From Aphanomyces cochlioides (Eukaryota > Oomycota > Saprolegniomycetes > Saprolegniales > Verrucalvaceae), in contig JAHQRK010000004.1 of NCBI GenBank assembly GCA_019828595.1, positions 1,302,001-1,366,000 of the forward strand: 64,000 bases of DNA. Direction: 5' to 3'. Position 1 is the stretch's first letter; every line of letters starts with the position of its first letter. Positions 1-63,597 of the stretch are shown piece by piece. The notes under the pieces are model-generated. The model was not told the origin of the DNA. It did no database searches and saw only the letters and a program-made list of their open reading frames with translations. Both the position numbers and the translations under genes were made by a program.

Positions 1-2
1 CT

Positions 3-1594: not shown

Positions 1595-1722
1595 CTTCAT
1601 CTCCTGTTCAATGACCACTTTGCCATATTCTGTTTTCCAAGTTCTATTTATACAGTACGAGGCAAATTAGTAAGTCATTAGGGCCTTTGCTCAAAAATAA
1701 GGTTAATACAACTCATTTAACC
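1575..1722 (+). other. 3' UTR of copy U0 (reference description)
   Basis: 148 nt, conserved in all copies. In order: a stem-loop overlapping the stop codon (TGAGTGAGC 1572-1580, loop TGACG, GCTCACTCA 1586-1594); a TATA-like TATTTATA at 1645-1652; a 22-nt stretch at 1655-1676 nearly complementary to the element's 5' end; a single TTAGGG at 1679-1684; AAAATAA near 1694-1700; and a terminal hairpin. It ends in CC with no poly(A) tail. Confidence 0.85.
1701..1722 (+). promoter_or_regulatory. Terminal 3' hairpin of the element
   Basis: GGTTAA (1701-1706) and TTAACC (1717-1722) are exact inverted repeats around a 10-nt loop and form the last 22 nt of the element in every copy. The last two bases, CC, are shared with the downstream sequence at every junction. 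It likely positions the RNA 3' end for target-primed reverse transcription (inference). Confidence 0.75.
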
Positions 1723-4700
1723 ACTGGAGGTCTGGCTACGTTGATACATCCTCACTCTCCTTTGAAGAACGCCACTCAAGTCCCTCATGACAACCCAGTG
1801 CTTCGTGGTCGTTATCTACAAGTGCGATGTACTCTGGGTCCACTGACAGTCGTTCTCCACAATATCTATGCGCCGGCAGCCTTCCAACAACGAGCAAGTT
1901 ACTTCGAAGAATTGCCACGCGACTTTCCTCCACATGCGCTCCACATTGTTGGAGGAGATTTCAACTGCACTCTCAACAAAGATTTGGATTCGTTGAGACC
2001 CAGTACCTCCACCATGGCCGGCACCCTTCAACTGGAACAATGGATGCACAGTTTGTCTCTGGTGGATCTGTTTCGCCGTCAAAACCCCGTGGCAAGAACC
2101 TTCACAAGTCCCACACTCACCAACCGACTCGACTACATCTTTTGTTCGTCCACCTTGGCGGGTCTTCGTCATTGGAAGGCGACGCACATGCCACACGTTC
2201 CACAGGCTGACCACGTGGCTTGTCGTATCATCTCAAAGCGTCAAACATTGCGCCATGGCTCTGGATCATGGAAAGCTCCAACTTGGCTACTTCGTCTACC
2301 ACGAGCGGCCGAGATTGTTCATGGATGTCTGGATCGATTTTTGGACAAGTCTCCAACATTCCACAATATCTCCAAGGCCTACGACATGCTGGTCAATGAT
2401 ATCCGCTCCCAACTCAAAGAATTCCATTCTCAACGATTGGAGAAACAACGTCTGCCGTTGAAGAAGTTAGCTGTCGAGATCGCTTCGCTTTTGCAAGTCC
2501 CCAACATGCGTCAAGATGCAGTGCTGGTGGATCGAGTGCGAGACCTTCAAAAGCAAATTCACGAGCTGCAAGATCGAGACAAGCAGTTTCGTCAAGACCA
2601 GGCGTTCCAACTTCACTTGTACAAAGCAGAGCGCTCGTCCAAGTTCCACTTCATGTCCCCTGTCCCTACCCCCTTGAAGAAGACAGTCTTCAAAGAGTTG
2701 GTGGATGTCAATGGAAATGTTGTCTCCAATCAACAAGGCATGTCTGACGTCCTGGTCGACTACTACAAGGACTTGTTTGCAGCTCCCGAGGTGCAGCGAT
2801 CTGGAGACGAAGTGTCGTCATTTCTGACCCCATTGACTCGACACAAGCAACTGCCAGAGCAAGCCCAGAAAGAGCTGTCGGCTCCCTTGCGCGCCAACGA
2901 GTTCTATCATGCTATTCGACACAGCAGTTCGAACTCAGCGCCAGGTCCCAACGCTCTGCCATTCGAAGTCCTCAAACTTGCACCTCACAAGTGGTCGTTG
3001 GTATTGGAGCTGCTATTCACACACCAGCTCCATTCTCACCCTCGCTTGACTCCCATGCAACTTGTCAGTACGCTGGTGTTGCTGCACAAGAAAGGCCCCA
3101 AGTCACAGGCCAAGAACTATCGGCCCATTAGCCTACTCAACACGGATGTGAAAATCCTGACGAGTATTCTGGCTTATCGACTCCAGCGCCACATTCGACA
3201 CATCATCCACCCGGACCAGCAAGGCTTTATCCGTCGAAGCAATATCCAAACCAATATTGCACGACTGGATGACATGCTGCACCACATCAAACGACACAGT
3301 CCGTCCTCGATGGTGGCACTGCTTGACTTTGAGAAAGCTTTTGATCGCGTGGACCACGCGTACTTGCTCCGCGTCCTCCGTCACTATGGCTTTCCCGAAA
3401 CCTTTGTTGACATGGTTCGCGTACTGTACTCGGGCCGCAAGTCTCGCATCTTGGTGAACGGCTTCTTGTCCAAGCCAGTTCACATCTCACGCGGTGTGTT
3501 GCAAGGTGATCCACTGTCGCCACTTCTGTTTGTGATCGCTTTGGAACCGATGTGCCAACTCCTACGGCAACACTCCAACTATGGCATCAAGTGTGGGGAT
3601 CGCTACCACACTGGGAGTTACTTTGCCGACGACTCGCAACTCTATGCGGCAAATGAGACGTGCCTCCACCGGCAGCTTGCATTGGTTCAAACCTTTTGCG
3701 ACAAGTCTGGTTTCCGACTCAACGTAGACAAGACCCAAATTCTGACCTACAGCCAGTTGAATGGGAACCTTGCCTCACTACAAGTTACTTCCGACAGTCC
3801 CGTGAAGGCTCTTGGTATCTTGGTTGCGCCCAATCTTTCTCCATTGGCACGTTTCAATTACGTGTTTGAGAAGTTTGTGGCTCGCTTGTCTTTGTGGCTC
3901 TACAAGGCTCGAACCATGGCCGGAAAAGTCACTATCCTGCACAGCATATGTCTGCCTGTGTTATGGTACCAACTGGCTTTTGTCCCTGCCGACAAAGACC
4001 TGGCCAAAAAGATCGACAAGGCCATGCTTCAATTTATGCATGGTGAAGAAATCAACCCATCCTCCTCTGTCCATGGCCTCCGTTTGATCAAAAAGGAGAT
4101 CATATTCATGCCGAAGAAGTCCGGTGGCTTAGGCCTGCACCATGCACTTGCTTTATGGCAACAACACAACCGCTCTGTCATGATCAGATGCATTCAAGCC
4201 ATCACCACCCCACCCCGCAAGTCTGCCATGTCCGCCTGGATTACGCCGGGCTATACTCTCCTCGAGAAGGCTTTTCATCCATGGGGTTCCCCCCGAGATC
4301 TCCTCTTGGCAAATGGCTCTTCTGCATTCATCAGACAACTGTACAAGAATCCCAATATCACTCCAATGTGGAAAGCCTTATTGAGTAGCTGGTTTGAATC
4401 CCGCTGGACTCCGTACGGCTGTCCAAATCACATCTCATCTTTGGATGTTCCCCTTTGGCACAACTCGTATCTGCCTGGACTCGAAGACCTATACGATCAG
4501 TGCTCTACATCGACGCAAGACCAAGCCAATGTATTGGCTTCGCTTCACATCACGAAGTTGTCGCATTTGTTGACTCCGTGTCAGCGAGTTTGGCCAGCTT
4601 CGATCTTGTTCGACAAAATCAACCGTGCCTGCCGCCAAGCCAATTTTGTCCCTCCAACGAAACAATGGATCTCAATCTTGGTGACCAAGTTATCACGATT

Positions 4701-5505
4701 GTTTGAGATTGTTTCTGAAGAGGATGCTCCCGTGTTCCACTTGCCGACGCCAAGCTCTGAATGGATGGAATGGCACTGGATGATTCACCCTGACTCGAGT
4801 CCGATCTTGTTGGCGTTTGCGACTTCGAAATCGGCTAAGATCAGAGCTTCTCCAGCTGTCAGCTCGTCCATTCTTCCTACCAAGCATCTCAACCTGCCAT
4901 CCAACTTTTACGAAGACCCCAAGCGCCTTACCCAACTTGCCGCCTTCCTCCAACCCGACCACATCCTCCCTCGATATGGAGAGTTCATTTTCAAGACCCT
5001 TCTCCGCGCCAACGCCATGCAATATCTGTTTCAGTACCAAGACCCCAAGCCGACGTGTGTCTTCTGTCGTGTCAATGAGACGTACGAGCATTTCCTGTTC
5101 TCTTGTGGATATGGTCAATCTGTTTGGTATTTCTTCAAGGCGATCCAGCGACTGCTCGAGTGTTCCTTTCCGTCCACGTGTCTGGAAATGTTCTACGAGA
5201 CGCCCAAGCCGTCCGATGGATACTACATCCGTGGCTATCTGAAGATCTGGCCGATTGTCCGAGCCTGCGTGTATTATCAAATATGGCTCCAACGTGCCGA
5301 TCGCACCTTTCGACCCGACCTCACAGCGAAGAGTCCGATGGAAGTTGCCATTCATGCTGCCTCTTTGATCAAGCTACATCTACAACAGCTCCTGGTTGAT
5401 CTCCCTCTCAAGAAGGGATACACCAAGGTATTCAATGTGCTCAAGCATCTATCTTCGGACCCCTGGTTACGTCAACACGCCATTCCTGACAGCGTCGTTT
5501 CATGA
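1723..5505 (+). pseudogene. ORF2 lacking the first 91 codons (endonuclease-RT)
   Basis: Uninterrupted for 1,260 codons to TGA at 5503-5505, but without its own start, so probably not translatable as a functional protein. The endonuclease motif with the first catalytic Glu (IQETR) is lost. The later endonuclease motifs GGDFN and RLDYI, the RT motifs LLDFEKAFDRVDH, GVLQGDPLSP and YFADDS, and the C-terminal zinc motif are present. Diagnostic residues include FQQRAS, IKRHSPSS, KKEIIF and HAIPDS. The 12-codon stop-free tail of U0 joins it in frame, but without an ATG. Confidence 0.9.
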
Positions 5506-5652
5506 GTGAGCTGACGGCTCACCACTTCATCTCCTGTTCAATGACCACTTTGCCATATTCTGTTTTCCAAGTTCTATTTATACAGTACGAGGCAAATTAG
5601 TAAGTCATTAGGGCCTTTGCTAAAAAATAAGGTTAATACAACTCATTTAACC
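5506..5652 (+). other. 3' UTR of copy U1
   Basis: 147 nt; one base pair of the stop-codon stem region is lost (CTCACCAC instead of CTCACTCAC), leaving a 6-bp GTGAGC/GCTCAC stem. The tail reads TAAAAAATAA instead of TCAAAAATAA. It ends in TTTAACC and abuts U2. Confidence 0.85.
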
Positions 5653-7295
5653 ACAGACCATTGTGATCTCAAGTTACAACTTGTCTACGTGCGTGGAAAT
5701 GGGAGGCACAACGTTTCGACTTGGTGGCAAAGACTTCCTGGTTCCCAAGTACTCGCGTTATGGCAACAACTACTACGTTACGTTCAACAAGGTCAGTCAC
5801 CCTTCGATGGCCAAGGCGATTGTCAAGAAAATGGCTGCATTGACCAAGTCAGTGATAGCAGCATTCAACCCTACTGCTGGTCAGAACATCAAGTCGCCGC
5901 ATTTGAGAGTCATTTTCAAGTCGTCTGCGCCTCCTGCAGTGCTGGTGCCAAAATCCGGCGACGCACTACGCGAAATCACCATTACGGATCCGTCGGGTCA
6001 GCCTTTTGTCGTCGTGTTTCAGCACAAGATCGCTGCTCTGAACAAGACATTGCCTCCGTCGATTGTTTCACGACGTGCAGAGGCCAAGGCTGAAAAAGCG
6101 AAGGCAAAAGCGGCCAAGGCAGCGGCAAAATCTCCTCCGTCAGGAGAAAAAGAACCTGAACATGATGGAGACGATCATGATCAAGACCCTGGAACAAATG
6201 CGGAAGGCGAGGCCGACTCAACTGAGGCATCTGGAGATGGTCAAGAGAGAACAACCACAGCCAACAGCTCCTTCTCATGGCTCTGATGTCGATATGTCTG
6301 GTGACAGCGATCCCCCTAACAACAATGGACAAGACAAACAACAAGAAGATGTGGAAATGTCTACCAACGAATCGCCCGCTCTTGCTCCACCAAGTGAGCA
6401 GCCCAAGAACTCGCTGGACCTTCAATTGGTAACGGGCTACCGGTCTGGACCAGCTCCAAAACGTACTTTGCCTTCGTCCCCACGTTTGGATCCCCTGCCG
6501 ACATCCAACCGTTTTCATATCCTCGAAGACGACGACGTGGGACTCTCGTTTGAAGACTTTGCAGTGCCTCGAATTGTATTGGAAGATTCAAGTGCGCCAC
6601 GCCCGAAAAAGACCAAAGGCAAAGCGAAGAAACAACGACTTAACAAGTCTGCTGCAGCCCACCTCGAATTGGCGAAGAAGATCATTCGAGACAAGAAAGT
6701 CGAAGGCAGTATCACCGAATGTCAACGCATTTTGCGAGATGATCCTCAGCTCGTTGCACATGCTATGTACGCACAAGATGAAGACCTCAGTTTGTTTCAG
6801 TCACTTGTTGCAACCAAGACTATTGAGCGCAAGATGGCTTTGTTAAAAGCTCAAGGCAAGCCTCACAACTACAAACATCACGTCAACTTCATGGCTCAAT
6901 ACAAGATTCACCCGTCAGAAATCTTGGAAGAATTGACCACGGACATACCAGAGATCAAGCGCATCCTCTTTGCACTTGCTACGATTGACTTATTCCTCTC
7001 AAATCGGGCCCCAGACCTCTACACAAACTCGGAGGCACTGACTGTTCTATTGAACCAAGAAGCAACAAGATTGCCTGACACCAACTGCTTGACGGACTGG
7101 TCGCTGTTTGCTTTGATCGAAAACTTCAGCGACAATCTCGAGAAGTTCACTTTGCCGGCTCCCGTCTTGTCGGCCATCTCGATGCTCAAAAGCATCACCA
7201 ACAATTACCACATCGACGAGCTCTGCAGCAAAGCTCACCACTCCATGAACGCCGACGAAATTGATCCCCTCGATTTGGAGGACGATCAACTCTAA
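5653..7295 (+). pseudogene. ORF1 fragment with frameshift
   Basis: Codons from Gln467 (5654) to the TAA at 7293-7295. At 6247-6248 a T of the other copies is replaced by GA, so the frame shifts and ends at 6286; the correct frame resumes and continues to 7295. It keeps half of the central domain, the Ala/Lys-rich helix, the acidic linker, the Lys-rich signal and the C-terminal helical domain. It lacks the N-terminal 466 residues and the start codon, so it is non-functional. Confidence 0.88.
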
Positions 7296-7373
7296 GGCTT
7301 CTATCCCCTGCTTCAATCCATTTCAACCTCCCCTCTGACCCCTCCATTCTACTCATTTTCATCTGTACTCGTG

Positions 7374-10300
7374 ATGATTGACAACAACTTCTCCGATGTC
7401 CCAACTGAACTCGTGGACTGGGACCCACAAATCATCTCCCTCAACACCAATGGCTTCTCCAACAGTCATCGGTACATCCTCGACAAACTATCAAGTGTTC
7501 ACGACGTTTCCTTTATCCAAGAAACCCGTTTCCGCACGCCAAGTCTCCACGACCGTGTTGCGTTCCATTGGCAACGCATCACAAACCACGAAGGCTCTTT
7601 GTTCTTTGAAGAGCCTATTTACCCTGAAGTATCCACGTCGCCAGCCACTGGAGGTCTGGCTACGTTGATACATCCTCACTCTCCTTTGAAGAACGCCACT
7701 CAAGTCCCTCATGACAACTCAGTGCTTCGTGGTCGTTATCTACAAGTGCGATGTACTCTGGGTCCACTGACAGTCGTTCTCCACAATATCTATGCGCCGG
7801 CAGCCTTCCAACAACGAGCAAGTTACTTCGAAGAATTGCCACGCGACTTTCCTCCACATGCGCTCCACATTGTTGGAGGAGATTTCAACTGCACTCTCAA
7901 CAAAGATTTGGATTCGTTGAGACCCAGTACCTCCACCATGGCCGGCACCCTTCAACTGGAACAATGGATGCACAGTTTGTCTCTGGTGGATCTGTTTCGC
8001 CGTCAAAACCCCGTGGCACGAGCCTCAGCCCCAAGTCACAGGCCAAGAACTATCGGCCCATTAGCCTACTCAACACGGATGTGAAAATCCTGACGAGTAT
8101 TCTGGCTTATCGACTCCAGCGCCACATTCGACACATCATCCACCCGGACCAGCAAGGCTTTATCCGTCGAAGCAATATCCAAACCAATATTGCACGACTG
8201 GATGACATGCTGCACCACATCAAACGACACAGTCCGTCCTCGATGGTGGCACTGCTTGACTTTGAGAAAGCTTTTGATCGCGTGGACCACGCGTACTTGC
8301 TCCGCGTCCTCCGTCACTATGGCTTTCCCGAAACCTTTGTTGACATGGTTCGCGTACTGTACTCGGGCCGCAAGTCTCGCATCTTGGTGAACGGCTTCTT
8401 GTCCAAGCCAGTTCACATCTCACGCGGTGTGTTGCAAGGTGATCCACTGTCGCCACTTCTGTTTGTGATCGCTTTGGAACCGATGTGCCAACTCCTACGG
8501 CAACACTCCAACTATGGCATCAAGTGTGGGGATCGCTACCACACTGGGAGTTACTTTGCCGACGACTCGCAACTCTATGCTGCAAATGAGACGTGCCTCC
8601 ACCGGCAGCTTGCATTGGTTCAAACCTTTTGCGACAAGTCTGGTTTCCGACTCAACGTAGACAAGACCCAAATTCTGACCTACAGCCAGTTGAATGGGAA
8701 CCTTGCCTCACTACAAGTTACTTCCGACAGTCCCGTGAAGGCTCTTGGTATCTTGGTTGCGCCCAATCTTTCTCCATTGGCACGTTTCAATTACGTGTTT
8801 GAGAAGTTTGTGGCTCGCTTGTCTTTGTGGCTCTACAAGGCTCGAACCATGGCCGGAAAAGTCACTATCCTGCACAGCATATGTCTGCCTGTGTTATGGT
8901 ACCAACTGGCTTTTGTCCCTGCCGACAAAGACCTGGCCAAAAAGATCGACAAGGCCATGCTTCAATTTATGCATGGTGAAGAAATCAACCCATCCTCCTC
9001 TGTCCATGGCCTCCGTTTGATCAAAAAGGAGATCCTATTCATGCCGAAGAAGTCCGGTGGCTTAGGCCTGCACCATGCACTTGCTTTATGGCAACAACAC
9101 AACCGCTCTGTCATGATCAGATGCATTCAAGCCATCACCACCCCACCCCGCAAGTCTGCCATGTCCGCCTGGATTACGCCGGGCTATACTCTCCTCGAGA
9201 AGGCTTTTCATCCATGGGGTTCCCCCCGAGATCTCCTCTTGGCGAATGGCTCTTCTGCATTCATCAGACAACTGTACAAGAATCCCAATATCACTCCAAT
9301 GTGGAAAGCCTTATTGAGTAGCTGGTTTGAATCCCGCTGGACTCCGTACGGCTGTCCAAATCACATCTCATCTTTGGATGTTCCCCTTTGGCACAACTCG
9401 TATCTGCCTGGACTCGAAGACCTATACGATCAGTGCTCTACATCGACGCAAGACCAAGCCAATGTATTGGCTTCGCTTCACATCACGAAGTTGTCGCATT
9501 TGTTGACTCCGTGTCAGCGAGTTTGGCCAGCTTCGATCTTGTTCGACAAAATCAACCGTGCCTGCCGCCAAGCCAATTTTGTCCCTCCAACGAAACAATG
9601 GATCTCAATCTTGGTGACCAAGTTATCACGATTGTTTGAGATTGTTTCTGAAGAGGATGCTCCCGTGTTCCACTTGCCGACGCCAAGCTCTGAATGGATG
9701 GAATGGCACTGGATAATTCACCCTGACTCGAGTCCGATCTTGTTGGCGTTTGCGACTTCGAAATCGGCTAAGATCAGAGCTTCTCCAGCTGTCAGCTCGT
9801 CCATTCTTCCTACCAAGCATCTCAACCTGCCATCCAACTTTTACGAAGACCCCAAGCGCCTTACCCAACTTGCCGCCTTCCTCCAACCCGACCACATTCT
9901 CCCTCGATATGGAGAGTTCATTTTCAAGACCCTTCTCCGCGCCAACGCCATGCAATATCTGTTTCAGTACCAAGACCCCAAGCCGACGTGTGTCTTCTGT
10001 CGTGTCAATGAGACGTACGAGCATTTCCTGTTCTCTTGTGGATATGGTCAATCTGTTTGGTATTTCTTCAAGGCGATCCAGCGACTGCTCGAGTGTTCCT
10101 TTCCGTCCACGTGTCTGGAAATGTTCTACGAGACGCCCAAGCCGTCCGATGGATACTACATCCGTGGCTATCTGAAGATCTGGCCGATTGTCCGAGCCTG
10201 CGTGTATTATCAAATATGGCTCCAACGTGCCGATCGCACCTTTCGACCCGACCTCACAGCGAAGAGTCCGATGGAAGTTGCCATTCATGCTGCCTCTTTG

Positions 10301-10438
10301 ATCAAGCTACATCTACAACAGCTCCTGGTTGATCTCCCTCTCAAGAAGGGATACACCAAGGTATTCAATGTGCTCAAGCATCTATCTTCGGACCGCTGGT
10401 TACGTCAACACGCCATTCCTGACAGCGCCGTTTCATGA
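7374..10438 (+). pseudogene. ORF2 with 993-nt deletion and frameshift
   Basis: ATG at 7374 follows the conserved 78-nt spacer (7296-7373). Residue 2 is Ile instead of Ser. The reading frame is correct to about residue 217. A deletion then joins GTGGCACGAGCCT to GCCCCAAG with two extra bases (CA); the net loss of 991 nt shifts the frame and gives a stop at 8082-8084. The lost segment carries the RLDYI and ADH endonuclease motifs and the region between endonuclease and RT. Downstream the RT core (DFEKAFDRVDH, FADDS) and zinc motif are intact in another frame to 10438. The end reads DRWLRQHAIPDSAVS. Confidence 0.9.
8021..8033 (+). other. Deletion joint inside U2 ORF2
   Basis: Left side matches ...GAGCCT, right side GCCCCAAG..., with CA between. 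Unlike the element-to-element junctions, this joint shows no shared CC and a 2-nt filler, which looks like end joining or a reverse-transcriptase jump. Confidence 0.8.
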
Positions 10439-10586
10439 GTGAGCTGACGGCTCACTCACTTCATCTCCTGTTCAATGACCACTTTGCCATATTCTGTTTT
10501 CCAAGTTCTATTTATACAGTACGAGGCAAATTAGTAAGTCATTAGGGCCTTTGCTCAAAAATAAGGTTAATACAACTCATTTAACC
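10439..10586 (+). other. 3' UTR of copy U2
   Basis: 148 nt with the 9-bp stop-codon stem-loop (loop TGACG) and terminal GGTTAA/TTAACC hairpin; abuts U3 at GTGGCACG with shared CC. Confidence 0.85.
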
Positions 10587-13500: not shown

Positions 13501-14002
13501 CCGCGCCAACGCCATGCAATATCTGTTTCAGTACCAAGACCCCAAGCCGACGTGTGTCTTCTGTCGTGTCAATGAGACGTACGAGCATTTCCTGTTCTCT
13601 TGTGGATATGGTCAATCTGTTTGGTATTTCTTCAAGACAATCCAGCGACTGCTCGAGTGTTCCTTTCCGTCCACGTGTCTGGAAATGTTCTACGAGACGC
13701 CCAAGCCGTCCGATGGATACTACATCCGTGGCTATCTGAAGATCTGGCCGATTGTCCGAGCCTGCGTGTATTATCAAATATGGCTCCAACGTGCCGATCG
13801 CACCTTTCGACCCGACCTCACAGCGAAGAGTCCGATGGAAGTTGCCATTCATGCTGCCTCTTTGATCAAGCTACATCTACAACAGCTCCTGGTTGATCTC
13901 CCTCTCAAGAAGGGATACACCAAGGTATTCAATGTGCTCAAGCATCTATCTTCGGACCCCTGGTTATGTCAACACATCATTCCTGACAGCGTCGTTTCAT
14001 GA
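10587..14002 (+). pseudogene. ORF2 fragment with one-base deletion
   Basis: From Val214 to TGA at 14000-14002. A C is missing at 12748/12749 (CCGGGTAT against CCGGGCTAT in the other copies), which shifts the frame downstream of the RT core. The first part is open to 12881 and the correct frame resumes to 14002. RT catalytic residues (DFEKAFDRVDH, FADDS) are in the first part and the zinc motif in the second. The first two-thirds of the endonuclease is missing. Carries IKLHSPSS, as do all copies further right where the site is present. Confidence 0.9.
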
Positions 14003-14150
14003 GTGAGCTAACGGCTCACTCACTTCATCTCCTGTTCAATGACCACTTTGCCATATTCTGTTTTCCAAGTTCTATTTATACAGTACGAGGCAAATTAGTA
14101 AGTCATTAGGGCCTTTGCTCAAAAATAAGGTTAATACAACTCATTTAACC
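14003..14150 (+). other. 3' UTR of copy U3
   Basis: 148 nt; stop-codon stem of 9 bp with loop TAACG (as in U6); ends in TTTAACC and abuts U4, which begins at codon 3 of ORF1. Confidence 0.85.
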
Positions 14151-17183: not shown

Positions 17184-17261
17184 GGCTTCTATCCCCTGCA
17201 TCAATCCATTTCAACCTCCCCTCTGACCCCTCCATTCTACTCATTTTCATCTGTACTCGTG

Positions 17262-21465: not shown

Positions 21466-21466
21466 A

Positions 21467-33006: not shown

Positions 33007-33007
33007 A

Positions 33008-45549: not shown

Positions 45550-45695
45550 TTAAATGAGTTGTATTAACCTTATTTTTGAGCAAAGGCCCTAATGACTTAC
45601 TAATTTGCCTCGTACTGTATAAATAGAACTTGGAAAACAGAATATGGCAAAGTGGTCATTGAACAGGAGATGAAGTGAGTGAGCTGTTAGCTCAC
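45548..45695 (-). other. 3' UTR of copy M1
   Basis: 148 nt on the minus strand. The stop-codon stem is the longest seen: TGAGTGAGCT / AGCTCACTCA, 10 bp with loop AAC, because TGACG changed to TAACA. Ends (leftmost) with the complement of TTTAACC, sharing GG with P1. Confidence 0.85.
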
Positions 45696-48600: not shown

Positions 48601-48942
48601 TGGTCTTGACGAAACTGCTTGTCTCGATCTTGCAGCTCGTGAATTTGCTTTTGAAGGTCTCGCACTCGATCCACCAGCACTGAATCTTGACGCATGTTGG
48701 GGACTTGCAAAAGCGAAGCGATCTCGACAGCTAACTTCTTCAACGGCAGACGTTGTTTCTCCAATCGTTGAGAATGGAATTCTTTGAGTTGGGAGCGGAT
48801 ATCATTGACCAGTATGTCGTAGGCCTTGGAGATATTGTGGAATGTTGGAGACTTGTCCAAAAATCGATCCAGACATCCATGAACAATCTCGGCCGCTCGT
48901 GGTAGACGAAGTAGCCAAGTTGGAGCTTTCCATGATCCAGAG
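45696..48942 (-). pseudogene. ORF2 of M1, main part (interrupted by P2)
   Basis: From about codon 269 (GSWKAPTW, near 48930) to TGA (complement of 45696-45698), unbroken. Carries the linker, RT core (DFEKAFDRVDH, FADDS) and zinc motif. The first 269 or so codons lie at 56322-57143. Variants: SKAYDILV, RQDSVLV, HRLYSHPR, SLDVALWH, KKEIIFMP, WYSFKTIQ. Confidence 0.9.
48930..48942. repeat. TSD of P2, left copy (13 bp)
   Basis: CCATGATCCAGAG, repeated at 56322-56334. The CC also belongs to P2's terminal TTTAACC on the right side. Immediately after it P2 begins with (T)GACTTCCG. Confidence 0.88.
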
Positions 48943-48943
48943 T

Positions 48944-49005
48944 GACTTCCGAATTTGCCTCGTACCCCTCAAGTCAAGAAGTTATCAAGTGCCGCCGCGC
49001 TCAAA
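48944..49005 (+). promoter_or_regulatory. 5' UTR of P2
   Basis: 62 nt, the same as in P1 and M1, ending in CTCAAA before the ATG. 48944-48965 is the stretch complementary to the 3' UTR. One extra T at 48943 separates it from the TSD. Confidence 0.75.
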
Positions 49006-52000: not shown

Positions 52001-52043
52001 CGACGAAATTGATCCCCTCGATTTGGAGGACGATCAACTCTAA
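49006..52043 (+). pseudogene. ORF1 of P2, one-base deletion
   Basis: ATG at 49006, TAA at 52041-52043. The G-run deletion near 49518-49527 is the same as in P1 and gives a stop at 49642-49644; the rest of the 1,012-codon frame is open. Variants: ASRSPSASPG and LGEGYKDW (both shared with M1). Confidence 0.9.
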
Positions 52044-52121
52044 GGCTTCTATCCCCTGCTTCAATCCATTTCAACCTCCCCTCTGACCCCTCCATTCTAC
52101 TCATTTTCATCTGTACTCGTG

Positions 52122-55100
52122 ATGAGTGACAACAACTTCTCCGATGTCCCAACTGAACTCGTGGACTGGGACCCACAAATCATCTCCCTCAACACCAATG
52201 GCTTCTCCAACAGTCATCGGTACATCCTCGACAAACTATCAAGTGTTCACGACGTTTCCTTTATCCAAAAACCCGTTTCCGCACGCCAAGTCTCCACGAC
52301 CGTGTTGCGTTCCATTGGCAACGCATCACAAACCACGAAGGCTCTTTGTTCTTTGAAGAGCCTATTTACCCTGAAGTATCCACGTCGCCAGCCACTGGAG
52401 GTCTGGCTACGTTGATACATCCTCACTCTCCTTTGAAGAACGCCACTCAAGTCCCTCATGACAACCCAGTGCTTCGTGGTCGTTATCTACAAGTGCGATG
52501 TACTCTGGGTCCACTGACAGTCGTTCTCCACAATATCTATGCGCCGGCAGCCTTCCAAGCACGAGCAAGTTACTTCGAAGAATTGCCACGCGACTTTCCT
52601 CCACATGCGCTCCACATTGTTGGAGGAGATTTCAACTGCACTCTCAACAAAGATTTGGATTCGTTGAGACCCAGTACCTCCACCATGGCCGGCACCCTTC
52701 AACTGGAACAATGGATGCACAGTTTGTCTCTGGTGGATCTGTTTCGCCGTCAAAACCCCGTGGCAAGAACCTTCACAAGTCCCACACTCACCAACCGACT
52801 CGACTACATCTTTTGTTCGTCCACCTTGGCGGGTCTTCGTCATTGGAAGGCGACGCACATGCCACACGTTCCACAGGCTGACCACGTGGCTTGTCGTATC
52901 ATCACAAAGCGTCAAACATTGCGCCATGGCTCTGGATCATGGAAAGCTCCAACTTGGCTACTTCGTCTACCACGAGCGGCCGAGATTGTTCATGGATGTC
53001 TGGATCGATTTTTGGACAAGTCTCCAACATTCCACAATATCTCCAAGGCCTACGACATGCTGGTCAATGATATCCGCTCCCAACTCAAAGAATTCCATTC
53101 TCAACGATTGGAGAAACAACGTCTGCCGTTGAAGAAGTTAGCTGTCGAGATCGCTTCGCTTTTGCAAGTCCCCAACATGCGTCAAGATTCAGTGCTGGTG
53201 GATCGAGTGCGAGACCTTCAAAAGCAAATTCACGAGCTGCAAGATCGAAACAAGCAGTTTCGTCAAGACCAGGCGTTCCAACTTCACTTGTACAAAGCAG
53301 AGCGCTCGTCCAAGTTCCACTTCATGTCCCCTGTCCCTACCCCCTTGAAGAAGACAGTCTTCAAAGAGTTGGTGGATGTCAATGGAAATGTTGTCTCCAA
53401 TCAACAAGGCATGTCTGACGTCCTGGTCGACTACTACAAGGACTTGTTTGCAGCTCCCGAGGTGCAGCGATCTGGAGACGAAGTGTCGTCATTTCTGACC
53501 CCATTGACTCGACACAAGCAACTGCCAGAGCAAGCCCAGAAAGAGCTGTCGGCTCCCTTGCGCGCCAACGAGTTCTATCATGCTATTCGACACAGCAGTT
53601 CGAACTCAGCGCCAGGTCCCAACGCTCTGCCATTCGAAGTCCTCAAACTTGCACCTCACAAGTGGTCGTTGGTATTGGAGCTGCTATTCACACACCAGCT
53701 CCATTCTCACCCTCGCTTGACTCCCATGCAACTTGTCAGTACGCTGGTGTTGCTGCACAAGAAAGGCCCCAAGTCACAAGCCAAGAACTATCGGCCCATT
53801 AGCCTACTCAACACGGATGTGAAAATCCTGACGAGTATTCTGGCTTATCGACTCCAGCGCCACATTCGACACATCATCCACCCGGACCAGCAAGGCTTTA
53901 TCCGTCGAAGCAATATCCAAACCAATATTGCACGACTGGATGACATGCTGCACCACATCAAACTACACAGTCCGTCCTCGATGGTGGCACTGCTTGACTT
54001 TGAGAAAGCTTTTGATCGCGTGGACCACGCGTACTTGCTCCGCGTCCTCCGTCACTATGGCTTTCCCGAAACCTTTGTTGACATGGTTCGCGTACTGTAC
54101 TCGGGCCGCAAGTCTCGCATCTTGGTGAACGGCTTCTTGTCCAAGCCAGTTCACATCTCACGCGGTGTGTTGCAAGGTGATCCACTGTCGCCACTTCTGT
54201 TTGTGATCGCTTTGGAACCGATGTGCCAACTCCTACGGCAACACTCCAACTATGGCATCAAGTGTGGGGATCGCTACCACACTGGGAGTTACTTTGCCGA
54301 CGACTCGCAACTCTATGCGGCAAATGAGACGTGCCTCCACCGGCAGCTTGCATTGGTTCAAACCTTTTGCGACAAGTCTGGTTTCCGACTCAACGTAGAC
54401 AAGACCCAAATTCTGACCTACAGCCAGTTGAATGGGAACCTTGCCTCACTACAAGTTACTTCCGACAGTCCCGTGAAGGCTCTTGGTATCTTGGTTGCGC
54501 CCAATCTTTCTCCATTGGCACGTTTCAATTACGTGTTTGAGAAGTTTGTGGCTCGCTTGTCTTTGTGGCTCTACAAGGCTCGAACCATGGCCGGAAAAGT
54601 CACTATCCTGCACAGCATATGTCTGCCTGTGTTATGGTACCAACTGGCTTTTGTCCCTGCCGACAAAGACCTGGCCAAAAAGATCGACAAGGCCATGCTT
54701 CAATTTATGCATGGTGAAGAAATCAACCCATCCTCCTCTGTCCATGGCCTCCGTTTGATCAAAAGGAGATCATATTCATGCCGAAGAAGTCCGGTGGCTT
54801 AGGCCTGCACCATGCACTTGCTTTATGGCAACAACACAACCGCTCTGTCATGATCAGATGCATTCAAGCCATCACCACCCCACCCCGCAAGTCTGCCATG
54901 TCCGCCTGGATTACGCCGGGCTATACTCTCCTCGAGAAGGCTTTTCATCCATGGGGTTCCCCCCGAGATCTCCTCTTGGCGAATGGTACTTCTGCATTCA
55001 TCAGACAACTGTACAAGAATCCCAATATCACTCCAATGTGGAAAGCCTTATTGAGTAGCTGGTTTGAATCCCGCTGGACTCCGTACGGCTGTCCAAATCA

Positions 55101-56175
55101 CATCTCATCTTTGGATGTTCCCCTTTGGCACAACTCGTATCTGCCTGGACTCGAAGACCTATACGATCAGTGCTCTACATCGACGCAAGACCAAGCCAAT
55201 GTATTGGCTTCGCTTCACATCACGAAGTTGTCGCATTTGTTGACTCCGTGTCAGCGAGTTTGGCCAGCTTCGATCTTGTTCGACAAAATCAACCGTGCCT
55301 GCCGCCAAGCCAATTTTGTCCCTCCAACGAAACAATGGATCTCAATCTTGGTGACCAAGTTATCACGATTGTTTGAGATTGTTTCTGAAGAGGATGCTCC
55401 CGTGTTCCACTTGCCGACGCCAAGCTCTGAATGGATGGAATGGCACTGGATAATTCACCCTGACTCGAGTCCGATCTTGTTGGCGCTTGCGACTTCGAAA
55501 TCGGCTAAGATCAGAGCTTCTCCAGCTGTCAGCTCGTCCATTCTTCCTACCAAGCATCTCAACCTGCCATCCAACTTTTACGAAGACCCCAAGCGCCTTA
55601 CCCAACTTGCCGCCTTCCTCCAACCCGACCACATTCTCCCTCGATATGGAGAGTTCATTTTCAAGACCCTTCTCCGCGCCAACGCCATGCAATATCTGTT
55701 TCAGTACCAAGACCCCAAGCCGACGTGTGTCTTCTGTCGTGTCAATGAGACGTACGAGCATTTCCTGTTCTCTTGTGGATATGGTCAATCTGTTTGGTAT
55801 TTCTTCAAGGCGATCCAGCGACTGCTCGAGTGTTCCTTTCCGTCGACTTGTCTGGAAATGTTCTACGAGACGCCCAAGCCGTCCGATGGATACTACATCC
55901 GTGGCTATCTGAAGATCTGGCCGATTGTCCGAGCCTGCGTGTATTATCAAATATGGCTCCAACGTGCCGATCGCACCTTTCGACCCGACCTCACAGCGAA
56001 GAGTCCGATGGAAGTTGCCATTCATGCTGCCTCTTTGATCAAGCTACATCTACAACAGCTCCTGGTTGATCTCCCTCTCAAGAAGGGATACACCAAGGTA
56101 TTCAATGTGCTCAAGCATCTATCTTCGGACCACTGGTTACGTCAACACATCATTCCTAACAGCGTCGTTTCATGA
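52122..56175 (+). pseudogene. ORF2 of P2 with two one-base deletions
   Basis: ATG at 52122. The first lesion, near 52268, is in the IQETR motif (CCAAAAACCC for CCAAGAAACCC) and destroys the frame at the catalytic Glu. A second, at about 54762, shortens an A-run (ATCAAAAGG for ATCAAAAAGG) after the RT core. Frames are open from 52346 to 54802 and from 54778 to 56175. RT and zinc motifs are recognisable in the separate frames. Variants: FQARAS, LQDRNKQF, NGTSAFIR, DHWLRQHIIPNS. Confidence 0.92.
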
Positions 56176-56323
56176 GAGAGCTGACGGCTCACTCACTTCA
56201 TCTCCTGTCCAATGACCACTTTGCCATATTCTGTTTTCCAAGTTCTATTTATACAGTACGAGGCAAATTAGTAAGTCATTAGGGCCTTTGCTCAAAAATA
56301 AGGTTAATACAACTCATTTAACC
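56176..56323 (+). other. 3' UTR of copy P2
   Basis: 148 nt; stop-codon stem with the TGAGAGAGC mismatch shared with U7; TCTCCTGTCCAATG differs from TCTCCTGTTCAATG in other copies. Ends in TTTAACC, the CC being part of the TSD. Confidence 0.85.
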
Positions 56324-56334
56324 ATGATCCAGAG
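56322..56334. repeat. TSD of P2, right copy (13 bp)
   Basis: CCATGATCCAGAG after P2's 3' end; M1's ORF2 continues from here on the minus strand. Confidence 0.88.
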
Positions 56335-57143
56335 CCATGGCGCAATGTTTGACGCTTTGAGATGATACGACAAGCCACGTGGTCAGCCTGTGGAACGTGT
56401 GGCATGTGCGTCGCCTTCCAATGACGAAGACCCGCCAAGGTGGACGAACAAAAGATGTAGTCGAGTCGGTTGGTGAGTGTGGGACTTGTGAAGGTTCTTG
56501 CCACGGGGTTTTGACGGCGAAACAGATCCACCAGAGACAAACTGTGCATCCATTGTTCCAGTTGAAGGGTGCCGGCCATGGTGGAGGTACTGGGTCTCAA
56601 CGAATCCAAATCTTTGTTGAGAGTGCAGTTGAAATCTCCTCCAACAATGTGGAGCGCATGTGGAGGAAAGTCGCGTGGCAATTCTTCGAAGTAACTTGCT
56701 CGTTGTTGGAAGGCTGCCGGCGCATAGATATTGTGGAGAACGACTGTCAGTGGACCCAGAGTACATCGCACTTGTAGATAACGACCACGAAGCACTGGGT
56801 TGTCATGAGGGATTTGAGTGGCGTTCTTCAAAGGAGAGTGAGGATGTATCAACGTAGCCAGACCTCCAGTGGCTGGCGACGTGGATACTTCAGGGTAAAT
56901 AGGCTCTTCAAAGAACAAAGAGCCTTCGTGGTTTGTGATGCGTTGCCAATGGAACGCAACACGGTCGTGGAGACTTGGCGTGCGGAAACGGGTTTCTTGG
57001 ATAAAGGAAACGTCGTGAACACTTGATAGTTTGTCGAGGATGTACCGATGACTGTTGGAGAAGCCATTGGTGTTGAGGGAGATGATTTGTGGGTCCCAGT
57101 CCACGAGTTCAGTTGGGACATCGGAGAAGTTGTTGTCACTCAT
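56322..57143 (-). pseudogene. ORF2 of M1, N-terminal part
   Basis: ATG at complement of 57141-57143, about 274 codons to the P2 insertion point after RHGSGSW. Contains all endonuclease motifs (IQETR, GGDFN, RLDYI, ADH). It continues at 48942 to the left of P2. Variants: TQIPHD, FQQRAS. Confidence 0.9.
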
Positions 57144-57221
57144 CACGAGTACAGATGAAAATGAGTAGAATGGAGGGGTCAGAGGGGAGGTTGAAATGGA
57201 TTGAAGCAGGGGATAGAAGCC

Positions 57222-60200
57222 TTAGAGTTGATCGTCCTCCAAATCGAGGGGATCAATTTCGTCGGCGTTCATGGAGTGGTGAGCTTTGCTGCAGAGCTCG
57301 TCGATGTGGTAATTGTTGGTGATGCTTTTGAGCATCGAGATGGCCGACAAGACGGGAGCCGGCAAAGTGAACTTCTCGAGATTGTCGCTGAAGTTTTCGA
57401 TCAAAGCAAACAGCGACCAGTCCGTCAAGCAGTTGGTGTCAGGCAATCTTGTTGCTTCTTGGTTCAATAGAACAGTCAGTGCCTCCGAGTTTGTGTAGAG
57501 GTCTGGGGCCCGATTTGAGAGGAATAAGTCAATCGTAGCAAGTGCAAAGAGGATGCGCTTGATCTCTGGTATGTCCGTGGTCAATTCTTCCAAGATTTCT
57601 GACGGGTGAATCTTGTATTGAGCCATGAAGTTGACGTGATGTTTGTAGTTGTGAGGCTTGCCTTGAGCTTTTAACAAAGCCATCTTGCGCTCAATAGTCT
57701 TGGTTGCAACAAGTGACTGAAACAAACTGAGGTCTTCATCTTGTGCGTACATAGCATGTGCAACGAGCTGAGGATCATCTCGCAAAATGCGTTGACATTC
57801 GGTGATACTGCCTTCGACTTTCTTGTCTCGAATGATCTTCTTCGCCAATTCGAGGTGGGCTGCAGCAGACTTGTTAAGTCGTTGTTTCTTCGCTTTGCCT
57901 TTGGTCTTTTTCGGGCGTGGCGCACTTGAATCTTCCAATACAATTCGAGGCACTGCAAAGTCTTCAAACGAGAGTTCCACGTCGTCTTCTTCGAGGATAT
58001 GAAAACGGTTGGATGTCGGCAGGGGATCCAAACGTGGGGACGAAGGCAAAGTACGTTTTGGAGCTGGTCCAGACCGGTAGCCCGTTACCAATTGAAGGTC
58101 CAGCGAGTTCTTGGGCTGCTCACTTGGTGGAGCAAGAGCGGGCGATTCGTTGGTAGACATTTCCACATCTTCTTGTTGTTTGTCTTGTCCATTGTTGTTA
58201 GGGGGATCGCTGTCACCAGACATATCGACATCAGAGCCATGAGAAGGAGCTGTTGGCTGTGGTTGTTCATCTTGACCATCTTCAGATGCCTCAGTTGAGT
58301 CGGCCTTGCCTTCCGCATTTGTTCCAGGGTCTTGATCATGATCGTCTCCATCATGTTCAGGTTCTTTTTCTCCTGACGGAGGAGATTTTGCCGCTGCCTT
58401 GGCCGCTTTTGCCTTCGCTTTTTCAGCCTTGGCCTCTGCACGTCGTGAAACAATCGACGGAGGCAATGTCTTGTTCAGAGCAGCGATCTTGTGCTGAAAC
58501 ACGACGACAAAAGGCTGACCCGACGGATCCGTAATGGTGATTTCGCGTAGTGCGTCGCCGGATTTTGGCACCAGCACTGCAGGAGGCGCAGACGACTTGA
58601 AAATGACTCTCAAATGCGGCGACTTGATGTTCTGACCAGCAGTAGGGTTGAATGCTGCTATCACTGACTTGGTCAATGCAGCCATTTTCTTGACAATTGC
58701 CTTGGCCATCGAAGGGTGACTGACCTTGTTGAACGTAACGTAGTAGTTGTTGCCATAACGCGAGTACTTGGGAACCAGGAAGTCTTTGCCACCAAGTCGA
58801 AACGTTGTGCCTCCCATTTCCACGCACGTAGACAAGTTGTAACTTGAGATCACAATGGTCTGTGGGTTCTTCTTGTGGATCAAAATGTTCGGAAATTTGG
58901 AGCCCCATAACGAACCAGGATTTTCCTTGACAAATTGATCGCAGATGACTTTTTCGGACCAGTCCTTGTAGCCTTCGCCCAACTTGACTGTGAGCTCGTA
59001 CACTTGGGACTGGGGGGTGAGCAAAATGTTTTCAATGAAGGCGTCCATGTCACCAGAGTCTTTGTAGAATGCGTCCGCCATGGCCTCGCATCGCGCAATA
59101 TCGTCATCGGCAATAGCATCAGCACCAGTGTTGCGATGTTTCGCGCCTTTGGGGGCATTGCCTTGCTTGGAATCTTTCTTGGACGAAGCTGAATCCTTGC
59201 CGGGAGTCTTTTGCGTCCATGGATTGGCCTTTTCAGCGTTTTGTTGCTCTTGATCGCCTTGTATTTGTGTCTGCCGCGGTAGGAGGATCAACAGCGCCAT
59301 TTCCTTGAGCAACGGATTTGTCGACAATGTCTTGATTTGACTGGTCATTGTCATTGTTTGTCGATTGTTCCTCTTGAATAACTTCTCCAGGAGTATCACA
59401 CGGCTTCGCTTGGCCGTTAATGTCGCCTGACCCATCAACCTCAGAGTGAATTTGAGTATTTCCCTCGTCGGTTAAGGCCTCGGTTTCAGTAGAATCCTTC
59501 CCTCGGCGTCTCCAGAGACCATATCCACGTCCTCTTGAGATTTTTCTTCTTCCTCTCCCGTTCTAGGAGGCTCAGCACAGGGGGCGACGCGGTTGGTGGC
59601 TGCTGGCTCAGTCCCATTGGTCACGAGAAAGGCCGGGGCCAGACCCCCAGTGACAGGGGTAGAAGGGGAATCCATGCCATCCCCGCAGCACGGTGACTGG
59701 GGTACACCATTGCTCCGGCGAGAACCCAAATCGGGATACCGCCCCCGCCCCTCCGAAGAGGCCCCTGGGGGGAAGTAGACAGAACCGCAGGGTGTGCCCA
59801 TAGGGGGGGCCCTCGTAGCCTCTAGGGCTGGCATGGACCCCGTTTTCTCGCCGCCTTCACTGGGGATCGACTCCAATTGGAGTCCAGGGAAGCAGCCACC
59901 ACAGGCACAAGGCCCCAGTGGTTCGCCCTCCTGAGTGAGGGCTTCGCTAGACAAGTTAACGACAGTGGTCTGGGGGTCAACCACTGACCCACTGAGGTTG
60001 ACCCCCCCTGGAACTCCGGCGAGTGGAGCACCAGGTGAAGCGCTGGGGGAGCGAGACGCAGATTGGTCTCCAGAGACGCTGTTGGGGTCGAACTCGACCT
60101 CCACTTCGGCCCTAGGGTTAGGTGTAGAGACATTACTCACACCACTTCCGCCATCCTGATTGGACGACGAAAGTGGGTGAGGTGATACAATACCTGGAAT

Positions 60201-60260
60201 GATGGTGACTCCGTGAGTGTTGGTCTCACGGAGCTCGGAACAGCTGTTGGCGTTGGACAT
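57222..60260 (-). pseudogene. ORF1 of M1 with compensating frameshifts
   Basis: ATG at complement of 60258-60260, TAA at complement of 57222-57224; the total span of 3,039 nt equals 1,012 codons plus stop. A one-base deletion near 59503 (GAGGGAAGG for GAGGGGAAGG) and a one-base insertion near 59268 (GACACAAATAC for GACAAAATAC) leave about 240 nt out of frame, and the first shift ends in an early stop. Outside this stretch the protein matches the other copies. It does not have the G-run deletion of P1 and P2. Variants: NTGADAIADDD, EGKADSTEASEDGQ. Confidence 0.9.
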
Positions 60261-60321
60261 TTTGAGCGCGGCGGCACTTGATAACTTCTTGACTTGAGGG
60301 GTACGAGGCAAATTCGGAAGT
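60261..60321 (-). promoter_or_regulatory. 5' UTR of M1
   Basis: About 61 nt on the minus strand, identical in its border to P1 and P2. 60301-60322 is the complement of the 5' terminal stretch that pairs with the 3' UTR. Confidence 0.75.
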
Positions 60322-60336
60322 CCTACGACATGCTGG
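60322..60336. repeat. TSD of M1, right copy (15 bp)
   Basis: CCTACGACATGCTGG directly after M1's 5' end (complement of GACTTCCG). The match with 45535-45549 shows M1 inserted into P1's ORF2 by a staggered cut. Confidence 0.88.
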
Positions 60337-63300
60337 TCAATGATATCCGCTCCCAACTCAAAGAATTCCATTCTCAACGATTGGAGAAACAACATCTGCC
60401 GTTGAAGAAGTTAGCTGTCGAGATCGCTTCGCTTTTGCAAGTCCCCAACATGCGTCAAGATGCAGTGCTGGTGGATCGAGTGCGAGACCTTCAAAAGCAA
60501 ATTCACGAGCTGCAAGATCGAGACAAGCAGTTTCGTCAAGACCAGGCGTTCCAACTTCACTTGTACAAAGCAGAGCGCTCGTCCAAGTTCCACTTCATGT
60601 CCCCTGTCCCTACCCCCTTGAAGAAGACAGTCTTCAAAGAGTTGGTGGATGTCAATGGAAATGTTGTCTCCAATCAACAAGGCATGTCTGACGTCCTGGT
60701 CGACTACTACAAGGACTTGTTTGCAGCTCCCGAGGTGCAGCGATCTGGAGACGAAGTGTCGTCATTTCTGACCCCATTGACTCGACACAAGCAACTGCCA
60801 GAGCAAGCCCAGAAAGAGCTGTCGGCTCCCTTGCGCGCCAACGAGTTTTATCATGCTATTCGACACAGCAGTTCGAACTCAGCGCCAGGTCCCAACGCTC
60901 TGCCATTCGAAGTCCTCAAACTTGCACCTCACAAGTGGTCGTTGGTATTGGAGCTGCTATTCACACATCAGCTTTATTCTCACCCTCGCTTGACTCCCAT
61001 GCAACTTGTCAGTACGCTGGTGTTGCTGCACAAGAAAGGCCCCAAGTCACAAGCCAAGAACTATCGGCCCATTAGCCTACTCAACACGGGTGTGAAAATC
61101 CTGACGAGTATTCTGGCTTATCGACTCCAGCGCCACATTCGACACATCATCCACCCGGACCAGCAAGGCTTTATCCGTCGAAGCAATATCCAAACCAATA
61201 TTGCACGACTGGATGACATGCTGCACCACATCAAACTACACAGTCCATCCTCGATGGTGGCACTGCTTGACTTTGAGAAAGCTTTTGATCGCGTGGACCA
61301 CGCGTACTTGCTCCGCGTCCTCCGTCACTATGGCTTTCCCGAAACCTTTGTTGACATGGTTCGCGTACTGTACTCGGGCCGCAAGTCTCGCATCTTGGTG
61401 AACGGCTTCTTGTCCAAGCCAGTTCACATCTCACGCGGTGTGTTGCAAGGTGATCCACTGTCGCCACTTCTGTTTGTGATCGCTTTGGAACCGATGTGCC
61501 AACTCCTACGGCAACACTCCAACTATGGCATCAAGTGTGGGGATCGCTACCACACTGGGAGTTACTTTGCCGATGACTCGCAACTCTATGCGGCAAATGA
61601 GACGTGCCTCCACCGGCAGCTTGCATTGGTTCAAACCTTTTGCGACAAGTCTGGTTTCCGACTCAACGTAGACAAGACCCAAATTCTGACTTACAGCCAG
61701 TTGAATGGGAACCTTGCCTCACTACAAGTTACTTCCGACAGTCCCGTGAAGGCTCTTGGTATCTTGGTTGCGCCCAATCTTTCTCCATTGGCACGTTTCA
61801 ATTACGTGTTTGAGAAGTTTGTGGCTCGCTTGTCTTTGTGGCTCTACAAGGCTCGAACCATGGCCGGAAAAGTCACTATCCTGCACAGCATATGTCTGCC
61901 TGTGTTATGGTACCAACTGGCTTTTGTCCCTGCCGACAAAGACCTGGCCAAAAAGATCGACAAGGCCATGCTTCAATTTATGCATGGTGAAGAAATCAAC
62001 CCATCCTCCTCTGTCCATGGCCTCCGTTTGATCAAAAAGGAGATCCTATTCATGCCGAAGAAGTCCGGTGGCTTAGGCCTGCACCATGCACTTGCTTTAT
62101 GGCAACAACACAACCGCTCTGTCATGATCAGATGCATTCAAGCCATCACCACCCCACCCCGCAAGTCTGCCATGGCCGCCTGGATTACGCCGGGCTATAC
62201 TCTCCTCGAGAAGGCTTTTCATCCATGGGGTTCCCCCCGAGATCTCCTCTTGGCGAATGGCTCTTCTGCATTCATCAGACAACTGTACAAGAATCCCAAT
62301 ATCACTCCAATGTGGAAAGCCTTATTGAGTAGCTGGTTTGAATCCCGCTGGACTCCGTACGGCTGTCCAAATCACATCTCATCTTTGGATGTTCCCCTTT
62401 GGCACAACTCGTATCTGCCTGGACTCGAAGACCTATACGATCAGTGCTCTACATCGACGCAAGACCAAGCCAATGTATTGGCTTCGCTTCACATCACGAA
62501 GTTGTCGCATTTGTTGACTCCGTGTCAGCGAGTTTGGCCAGCTTCGATCTTGTTCGACAAAATCAACCGTGCCTGCCGCCAAGCCAATTTTGTCCCTCCA
62601 ACGAAACAATGGATCTCAATCTTGGTGACCAAGTTATCACGATTGTTTGAGATTGTTTCTGAAGAGGATGCTCCCGTGTTCCACTTGCCGACGCCAAGCT
62701 CTGAATGGATGGAATGGCACTGGATGATTCACCCTGACTCGAGTCCGATCTTGTTGGCGCTTGCGACTTCGAAATCGGCTAAGATCAGAGCTTCTCCAGC
62801 TGCCAGCTCGTCCATTCTTCCTACCAAGCATCTCAACCTGCCATCCAACTTTTACGAAGACCCCAAGCGCCTTACCCAACTTGCCGCCTTCCTCCAACCC
62901 GACCACATTCTCCCTCGATATGGAGAGTTCATTTTCAAGACCCTTCTCCGCGCCAACGCCATGCAATATCTGTTTCAGTACCAAGACCCCAAGCCGACGT
63001 GTGTCTTCTGTCGTGTCAATGAGACGTACGAGCATTTCCTGTTCTCTTGTGGATATGGTCAATCTGTTTGGTATTCCTTCAAGACAATCCAGCGACTGCT
63101 CGAGTGTTCCTTTCCGTCCACGTGTCTGGAAATGTTCTACGAGACGCCCAAGCCGTCCGATGGATACTACATCCGTGGCTATCTGAAGATCTGGCCGATT
63201 GTCCGAGCCTGCGTGTATTATCAAATATGGCTCCAACGTGCCGATCGCACCTTTCGACCCGACCTCACAGCGAAGAGTCCGATGGAAGTTGCCATTCATG

Positions 63301-63449
63301 CTGCCTCTTTGATCAAGCTACATCTACAACAGCTCCTGGTTGATCTCCCTCTCAAGAAGGGATACACCAAGGTATTCAATGTGCTCAAGCATCTATCTTC
63401 GGACCCCTGGTTACGTCAACACATCATTCCTGACAGCGTCGTTTCATGA
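60322..63449 (+). pseudogene. ORF2 of P1, second part
   Basis: Open from the TSD to TGA at 63447-63449, about 1,042 codons, containing the linker, complete RT core and zinc motif, all in frame with the part at 44607-45549 once M1 is taken out. Variants: KQHLPLKK, SLLNTGVKIL (Gly for Asp next to the first RT motif), SAMAAWITPG, LLALATSK, WYSFKTIQ. No internal stop. Confidence 0.9.
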
Positions 63450-63597
63450 GTGAGCATGACGGCTCACCACTTCATCTCCTGTTCAATGACCACTTTGCCA
63501 TATTCTGTTTTCCAAGTTCTATTTATACAGTACGAGGCAAATTAGTAAGTCATTAGGGCCTTTGCTCAAAAATAAGGTTAATACAACTCATTTAACC
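63450..63597 (+). other. 3' UTR of copy P1
   Basis: 148 nt with the GTGAGC-ATGACG-GCTCAC hairpin shared with U4 and U5; ends in TTTAACC and abuts ORF1 site B. Confidence 0.85.

Follow-up and report, generated by a model that had tools for sequence, protein, structure and literature searches.

The window analysed here, a 64,000-nt stretch of the Aphanomyces cochlioides genome (contig JAHQRK010000004.1, positions 1,302,001 to 1,366,000; C34:1302001-1366000 in our searches), consists almost wholly of copies of one long interspersed nuclear element (LINE), at 99.0-99.8% identity. The 3' ends of these copies are joined to a CC that was already present in the target, an observation that is real, strong and genome-wide, and that is slightly broader than was originally stated (YC, where Y is C or T, with CCA the best site). 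A full-length copy is ~7.38 kb long (48943-56321, our coordinate reference; Table 1) and its 3' end is ...CTCATTTAA, without poly(A). A single open reading frame 2 (ORF2) of the element includes both an apurinic/apyrimidinic (APE)-type endonuclease and a reverse transcriptase (PF03372, PF00078), and an ORF2 of 1352 aa is present in copies other than the reference copy. The closest solved chains to the endonuclease and reverse transcriptase regions of ORF2 are those of LINE-1 ORF2p (3.5e-61), and based on this pairwise match and the domains the element appears to be an L1-like LINE. In keeping with the L1 clade, it has target-site duplications (TSDs) of variable length (about 13-17 bp) and several 5' truncations. 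The poly(A) or A-rich tail that is usual, although not universal, in that clade is replaced in the tails read by TTTAA and then target; instead of an L1-type T-rich nick site, the element has the target /YC(A), i.e., 5'-TGR^; and instead of the single defined genomic target of target-specific LINEs, it has 121 distinct targets within its own copies, plus non-self sites. The four frames upstream of ORF2 matched no Pfam family at E 0.1.

The eleven tails in the window lie where the original prediction placed them (its coordinates give the second C of each junction), whereas 0.05 tails would be expected there by chance, and all of them read TTTAA-CC. Its further claim, that the CC is also present at the same place in intact copies, could be confirmed directly for ten of the eleven junctions, at which the flank maps to the element and CC precedes the mapped A or G. 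At the eleventh junction (63595), the flank is a 15-bp TSD of element position +1458 (CCACAGACCATTGTG; window 63596-63611), and another copy, truncated at 4596, comes directly after it, as would be the case if one site had received two insertions. The base after CC is A in nine cases and G in two, and the eight distinct target positions, in both orientations, were also as predicted (Table 1). As CC makes up 6.1% of dinucleotides on both strands, eight CC in eight would arise by chance with a probability of ~2e-10.

Table 1. Junctions and copies of the element in the window. Target positions refer to the first C and use the numbering of copy 48943-56323.
Feature	Coordinates	Strand	Last base of TTTAA	Remarks
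Target CC at 3' junction	1721..1722	+	1720	element position +3450
Target CC at 3' junction	5651..5652	+	5650	element position +1458
Target CC at 3' junction	10585..10586	+	10584	element position +3816
Target CC at 3' junction	14149..14150	+	14148	element position +68
Target CC at 3' junction	21464..21465	+	21463	element position +1458
Target CC at 3' junction	27388..27389	+	27387	element position +1762
Target CC at 3' junction	33005..33006	+	33004	element position +1458
Target CC at 3' junction	38929..38930	+	38928	element position -3456
Target CC at 3' junction	45548..45549	-	45550	element position -4121
Target CC at 3' junction	56322..56323	+	56321	element position -4000
Target CC at 3' junction	63596..63597	+	63595	+1458 TSD, then another 5'-truncated copy
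Full-length copy, coordinate reference	48943..56321	+		5' end (T)GACTTCCG, 3' end TTTAA
3' untranslated region (UTR), 146 nt	56176..56321	+		ends TTTAA, without poly(A)
ORF2, 1352 aa, APE-type endonuclease and reverse transcriptase	17259..21317	+		Pfam PF03372 1.1e-7, PF00078 1.2e-36
Full-length minus copy, split by 48943-56321, within plus copy	45550..60321	-		TSD CCAGCATGTCGTAGG both sides
Full-length plus copy, split by the minus copy 45550..60321	41430..63595	+		left and right flanks without TSD match
5'-truncated copy within plus copy	8026..10584	+		TSD CCGTGGCACGAGCCT both sides
Right part of nested complex	1..38928	+		outer TSD CCAGTGGCTGGCG(AC), both complex ends

A search of the genome (76,215,617 bases, 94 contigs) with the exact 18-nt tail TTAATACAACTCATTTAA gave 739 matches (378 forward, 361 reverse; control 0). 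By subtraction, 688 of these tails are followed by CC; the others are followed by T (42), by A (5) or by C and then a base other than C (4). Among the 688, CCA accounts for 482 (70%, by subtraction), CCT for 77 and CCC or CCG for 129, compared with 357 CCA in 904 CCN within the element itself. Twenty-six of the 42 tails followed by T were read further, and 25 of them have TC and one TAT. The proposed site, CC(A/G), was right in that CC dominates and CCA is best, but the rule is slightly wider than this, with TC as a minority and CCT used as well. A poly(A) start was rejected, with just 5 of 739 tails continuing with A; rare TTTAAA-CC tails were seen at L039/L034, L054, L061 and L066. No tails one or two bases short (TTTA then not A, TTT then not A; 0 and 0) were found genome-wide in a search that covered these two kinds of end and is blind to a shift where the target supplies the A, and thus the start of reverse transcription is sharp.

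New copies often land in older ones, and for most of the insertions that we read an intact version of the target is therefore available elsewhere in the genome. Our unselected set consisted of 30 of 34 tails on C1, 23 of 23 on C3, 37 of 41 listed on C4, the 11 of the window and one from within the 20 kb to its left. At these 102 junctions the letters are CC in 100 cases, TC in one and AC in one. Eighty-eight map to the element, at 62 distinct targets, of which 60 are CC in intact copies, one TC and one AC; against the 6.1% background, the binomial p for 60 of 62 is about 3e-70. To this set the whole sample adds loci that were picked for non-CC or for CCT/CCS, giving 213 junction rows. We left out 31 rows that were unmapped or late-mapped (non-self flanks, together with L010, L047, L070, L090 and window 63595, which have small differences or rearrangements), and the remaining 182 represent 121 distinct sites; overlapping loci repeat some junctions, which is harmless once collapsed. 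The 121 targets comprise 101 CC, 16 TC, 2 CT, 1 AC and 1 TT. Three targets disagree with their own junctions. At two of these sites the copies differ from one another, and reading the majority form would change the target at L064 from TT to TC and that at L199 from CT to CC; at L071 the target is CC and the junction CA. At the 16 TC sites, A follows TC in 12 where 4.2 are expected, so that A after YC is enriched in CC and TC contexts alike. Tail flanks compared with intact copies thus uphold the predicted rule across the genome, in a slightly looser form than CC, and targets with neither CC nor TC are rare.

Outside the element, the rule was examined by asking whether a right flank starting with CC recurs at the left end of the copy, as a TSD should. 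This was the case for all three non-self copies tested (on C1): their CC-starting 13-mers recur 7,391, 7,396 and 7,285 bases upstream of the junction, at the place of the left TSD of a full-length or near-full-length copy (7.3-7.4 kb upstream). The left matches were assigned by 13-mer position, with 4.4-4.5 kb of upstream sequence read, all of it element, and two of the three 13-mers are also present elsewhere in the genome. One non-self target (approximately ACAAA..TGCATCTCGATGCCACTTTTTCTCC) was struck several times (L004, L008, L054, L066, L067, L076, L077) and looks like another repeat of the same blocks.

The copies are nested, and their TSDs of about 13-17 bp start exactly at the YC of the junction. 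The reference copy lies inside a minus-strand copy with TSD CCATGATCCAGAG on both sides, and this TSD and the three in Table 1 (CCAGCATGTCGTAGG, CCGTGGCACGAGCCT, CCAGTGGCTGGCG) all begin with the CC. The complex that ends at 38928 begins 16.8 kb to the left of the window and lies inside one minus copy; it has eight 3' junctions, seven of them head-to-tail and the last against a minus copy. The two halves of this large complex fail strict pairing, with the left blocks 1-1473 and 1-80 repeated. These blocks occupy C34:1285197-1296342 (16.8 to 5.7 kb left of the window; L073, L074) with a period of ~1.55 kb, and their unmatched repetition reflects either unequal recombination or an assembly error. 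Similarly, since the left and right flanks of copy 41430-63595 form no TSD, one of its sides has been rearranged. Based on these unpaired halves and mismatched flanks, recombination (or assembly error) has multiplied some junctions, and for this reason we counted distinct positions only. A further rearrangement, which is not a 3'-end junction, is seen within a minus copy at window 40453, where position 5083 is joined to 1933.

Such multiplication raises the question of whether all the breakpoints go back to a small number of ancestral events that segmental duplication or unequal crossing-over then spread. The four uses of +1458 in the window and the 1.55-kb repetition of the 1-1473 and 1-80 halves would fit this, as would C4:245668-252946, where nine successive tails stand ~907 bp apart, all with CCG, in a short-unit tandem array. 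However, one duplication cannot give 121 distinct positions in both orientations or supply YC wherever a new position arises, nor does it account for complete TSDs or for non-self insertions. We regard it as very improbable as the explanation of the junctions and reject it as their sole cause, while retaining it as a contributor to copy number: the breakpoints arose by nested insertion, and recombination multiplied some of them.

Any single CC junction could also be read as the element's own 3' end, in which case the match to the target would be chance or ambiguity of alignment. This reading has next to no probability, based on the 60 of 62 unselected distinct sites that carry CC in intact copies, and it was rejected on the TC junctions. 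At TC targets the junction is TTTAA-TC, with the T kept, and where a TSD could be read it starts with TC (L040 and L060, TCAGGAGGGCGAAC; TCC at L067). No clear case of CC added onto a target without CC was found among the 121 sites; at the one candidate, L199 (-846), other reads are divided between CC (24 of 32) and CT (8 of 32), and the host copy would have to be of the minority CT form. From the TC junctions at TC targets and the lack of a clear CC gain it follows that the element ends with TTTAA and that the YC belongs to the target; the CC is the first two bases of the target duplication.

What reads the site is a separate question. At the 101 CC sites, bases -3 to -1 are non-random (p about 0.0005, the lowest value that 2000 draws allow, post hoc) relative to a background with the same +3 base, A being favored at -2 and avoided at -1. 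Positions +4 to +6 are also non-random (p 0.0015), and the five other three-position blocks at these sites have no preference. Pairing between primer and RNA is limited to the primer side of the nick and -3 to -1 is the other side, which favors the endonuclease over pure pairing; it looks like protein recognition that spans the nick. The best explanation, which we consider fairly probable from the sequence data, is a first-strand nick by the APE-type endonuclease at 5'-(T)GR^. Read on the element strand, this site would be /CCA, with /CCN less common and /TCN accounting for a few per cent. The 3' end released by the nick would prime reverse transcription from the last A of a precise, tail-less RNA end, ...UUUAA, in target-primed reverse transcription, and the second strand would be cut about 13-17 bp further on to produce a duplication starting with YC. 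The target sequence, the TSDs, the nesting and the sharp 3' boundary are observed directly; that the endonuclease reads YCA, the order in which the strands are cut and the RNA 3' end are what we infer from them. The 3' UTR was also considered as a guide and dropped, as its predicted RNA fold is ordinary (z -0.73).

Several points weigh against this explanation. The p value for -3 to -1 is optimistic because the block was picked after the per-position results and seven blocks were tested, and the 16 TC sites lack the signal (p 0.27, 0.36 and 0.73 per position; low power). Sixty of the flanks were added by selection, 40 for T at +3 and 20 for C or G at +3, with the background stratified to match. 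The target letters come from a reference copy and not from the very copy that was struck, and one site, L069 (ATG-CTATG, the hyphen marking the junction), has neither CC nor TC. Of the five tails followed by A, both of those with a readable TSD (L034, L061) have the target ACC. Finally, pairing would readily account for a start as sharp as this one, and it may help: the CC sits exactly where the paired bases would be, and so target sequence alone is compatible with such help.

According to the original prediction, the primer ends in GG-3' and pairs with a CC at the 3' end of the RNA. Its conclusion that the target requirement is very short stands, both of its own refuting conditions fail, and the short requirement is consistent with target-primed reverse transcription, given the TSDs, the 5' truncation, the 121 self-targets and the three of three non-self copies. 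Its pairing step does not fit as well with a CC that starts the target duplication, with TC targets that keep their T and with the signal at -3 to -1. In its full form, pairing requires that the RNA ends ...UUUAACC, that the GG-3' must pair with this CC and that the two-base duplex sets both site and register; transcription that runs on into the parent copy's flank, itself nearly always CC, could supply the CC. The 688 of 739 tails with CC and the lack of any one- or two-base-short tail are as this would predict, RNA-target pairing has been proposed for SART1 (PMC7265360), and efficient priming by human L1 requires a match of about four primer bases, with compensated terminal mismatches tolerated (PMC3649969). 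Against it, TC targets keep their T (TC in 25 of the 26 T cases read; 42 genome-wide), L199 is the only candidate among 121 sites for a CC gained by a target without one, and a preference exists on the side of the nick that does not pair. In addition, site choice by pairing with an RNA that carries the parent flank would predict kinship among TC copies. Of 78 copies, 12 were left out as poorly aligned (7 TC), and the remaining 66 collapsed to 51, including 13 TC; TC copies were the nearest neighbors of TC copies in 2.0 of 13 cases compared with 3.2 expected (p 0.75), and inheritance of TC by descent was thus not seen, at the low power of 13 copies. We consider obligatory pairing of this kind somewhat unlikely, although GG:CC pairing is possible; endonuclease preference explains the site data without it. 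Another version, in which no more than two base pairs are needed, transcription reads two bases into the parent flank to give an RNA ending ...UUUAACC, and the letters of the last target choose the next, would appear distinctly unlikely. If true, it would mean a heritable, evolvable two-letter address outside the element's own sequence.

Zepp carries a poly(A) tail, human LINE-1 copies are 5' truncated, SART1/R1-type LINEs have an APE endonuclease, and R2 combines a restriction-like endonuclease with a single ribosomal DNA site. Zepp of Coccomyxa/Chlorella and ZeppL-1_cRei of Chlamydomonas are described (PMC3446292, PMC8226300) as L1-clade LINEs that are nested, mostly 5'-truncated and self-landing, and that form dense clusters, one per chromosome, which are thought to be centromeric. 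Like them, the element studied here appears to be L1-type, is nested and lands in its own copies; unlike them, it is found in an oomycete and has no poly(A), and a YC target rule is not mentioned in the passages of the two papers that we consulted. With human LINE-1 it shares, besides the structural match given above, 5' truncation and TSD size (about 15 bp in cells for human L1; PMC4245944). Human L1 nicks at 5'-TTTT/A and primes in poly(A) (PMC3649969), whereas the element would use 5'-TGR^ and has a fixed, tail-less end. As in SART1/R1, there is an APE endonuclease and an exact start tied to the target; unlike these LINEs, which have one defined target (SART1 also has poly(A)), the element needs two to three bases and uses >100 positions. 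It starts exactly, like R2, the reverse transcriptase of which needs no primer match (PMC3649969), but unlike R2 it has an APE endonuclease and many sites. For LINEs in general, PMC3649969 leaves open the choice between primer-template pairing, as in human L1, and a guided, pairing-free start, as in R2. Against this background, the system is of value in that an L1-like element without poly(A) starts sharply and has left numerous nearly identical insertions, for which sister copies show the site before insertion. With the YC rule, its TC minority and the two-sided signal at the nick, choice by the endonuclease can be told apart from pairing with the RNA, and a self-nested element with a two- to three-letter target is a clean natural test of site choice and of the start of copying.

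Among the matches listed, most large contigs have one dense block of the element and a few isolated copies, and several blocks reach contig ends; examples are C12 3.50-3.68 Mb, C23 2.23-2.42, C8 1.41-1.67, C45 1.81-2.08 and C34:1073736-1366000. By analogy with Zepp in algae, these dense arrays are candidate centromeres. In the oomycete Phytophthora sojae, the centromere-enriched element is a Copia-like long terminal repeat transposon (PMC7082073), and centromeres built on a LINE are therefore no more than a lead for Aphanomyces. The transposable elements of Aphanomyces, LINEs and short interspersed nuclear elements included, have been surveyed (PMC5907361); neither this element nor the centromeres of Aphanomyces were the subject of any study among the listed titles and opening lines of abstracts on oomycete and Aphanomyces genomes, centromeres and LINEs.

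Related families at 61-74% identity (P0004-P0010) occur in A. astaci and on further contigs. A second LINE-type ORF2 family was seen on C15, C24, C27 and other contigs, with 93% identity to P0014, which in turn is 43% identical to the ORF2 studied here. As a control with another tail it gave no insertion end in the ten of ten copies followed further, in which ~1.7 kb past ORF2 is common at 99.6-99.9% identity. Two of 20 copies (L147, L151) diverge from the first row compared after 157 and 362 bases, at what may be ends or indels, and the family lies partly in 10.4-kb tandem units.

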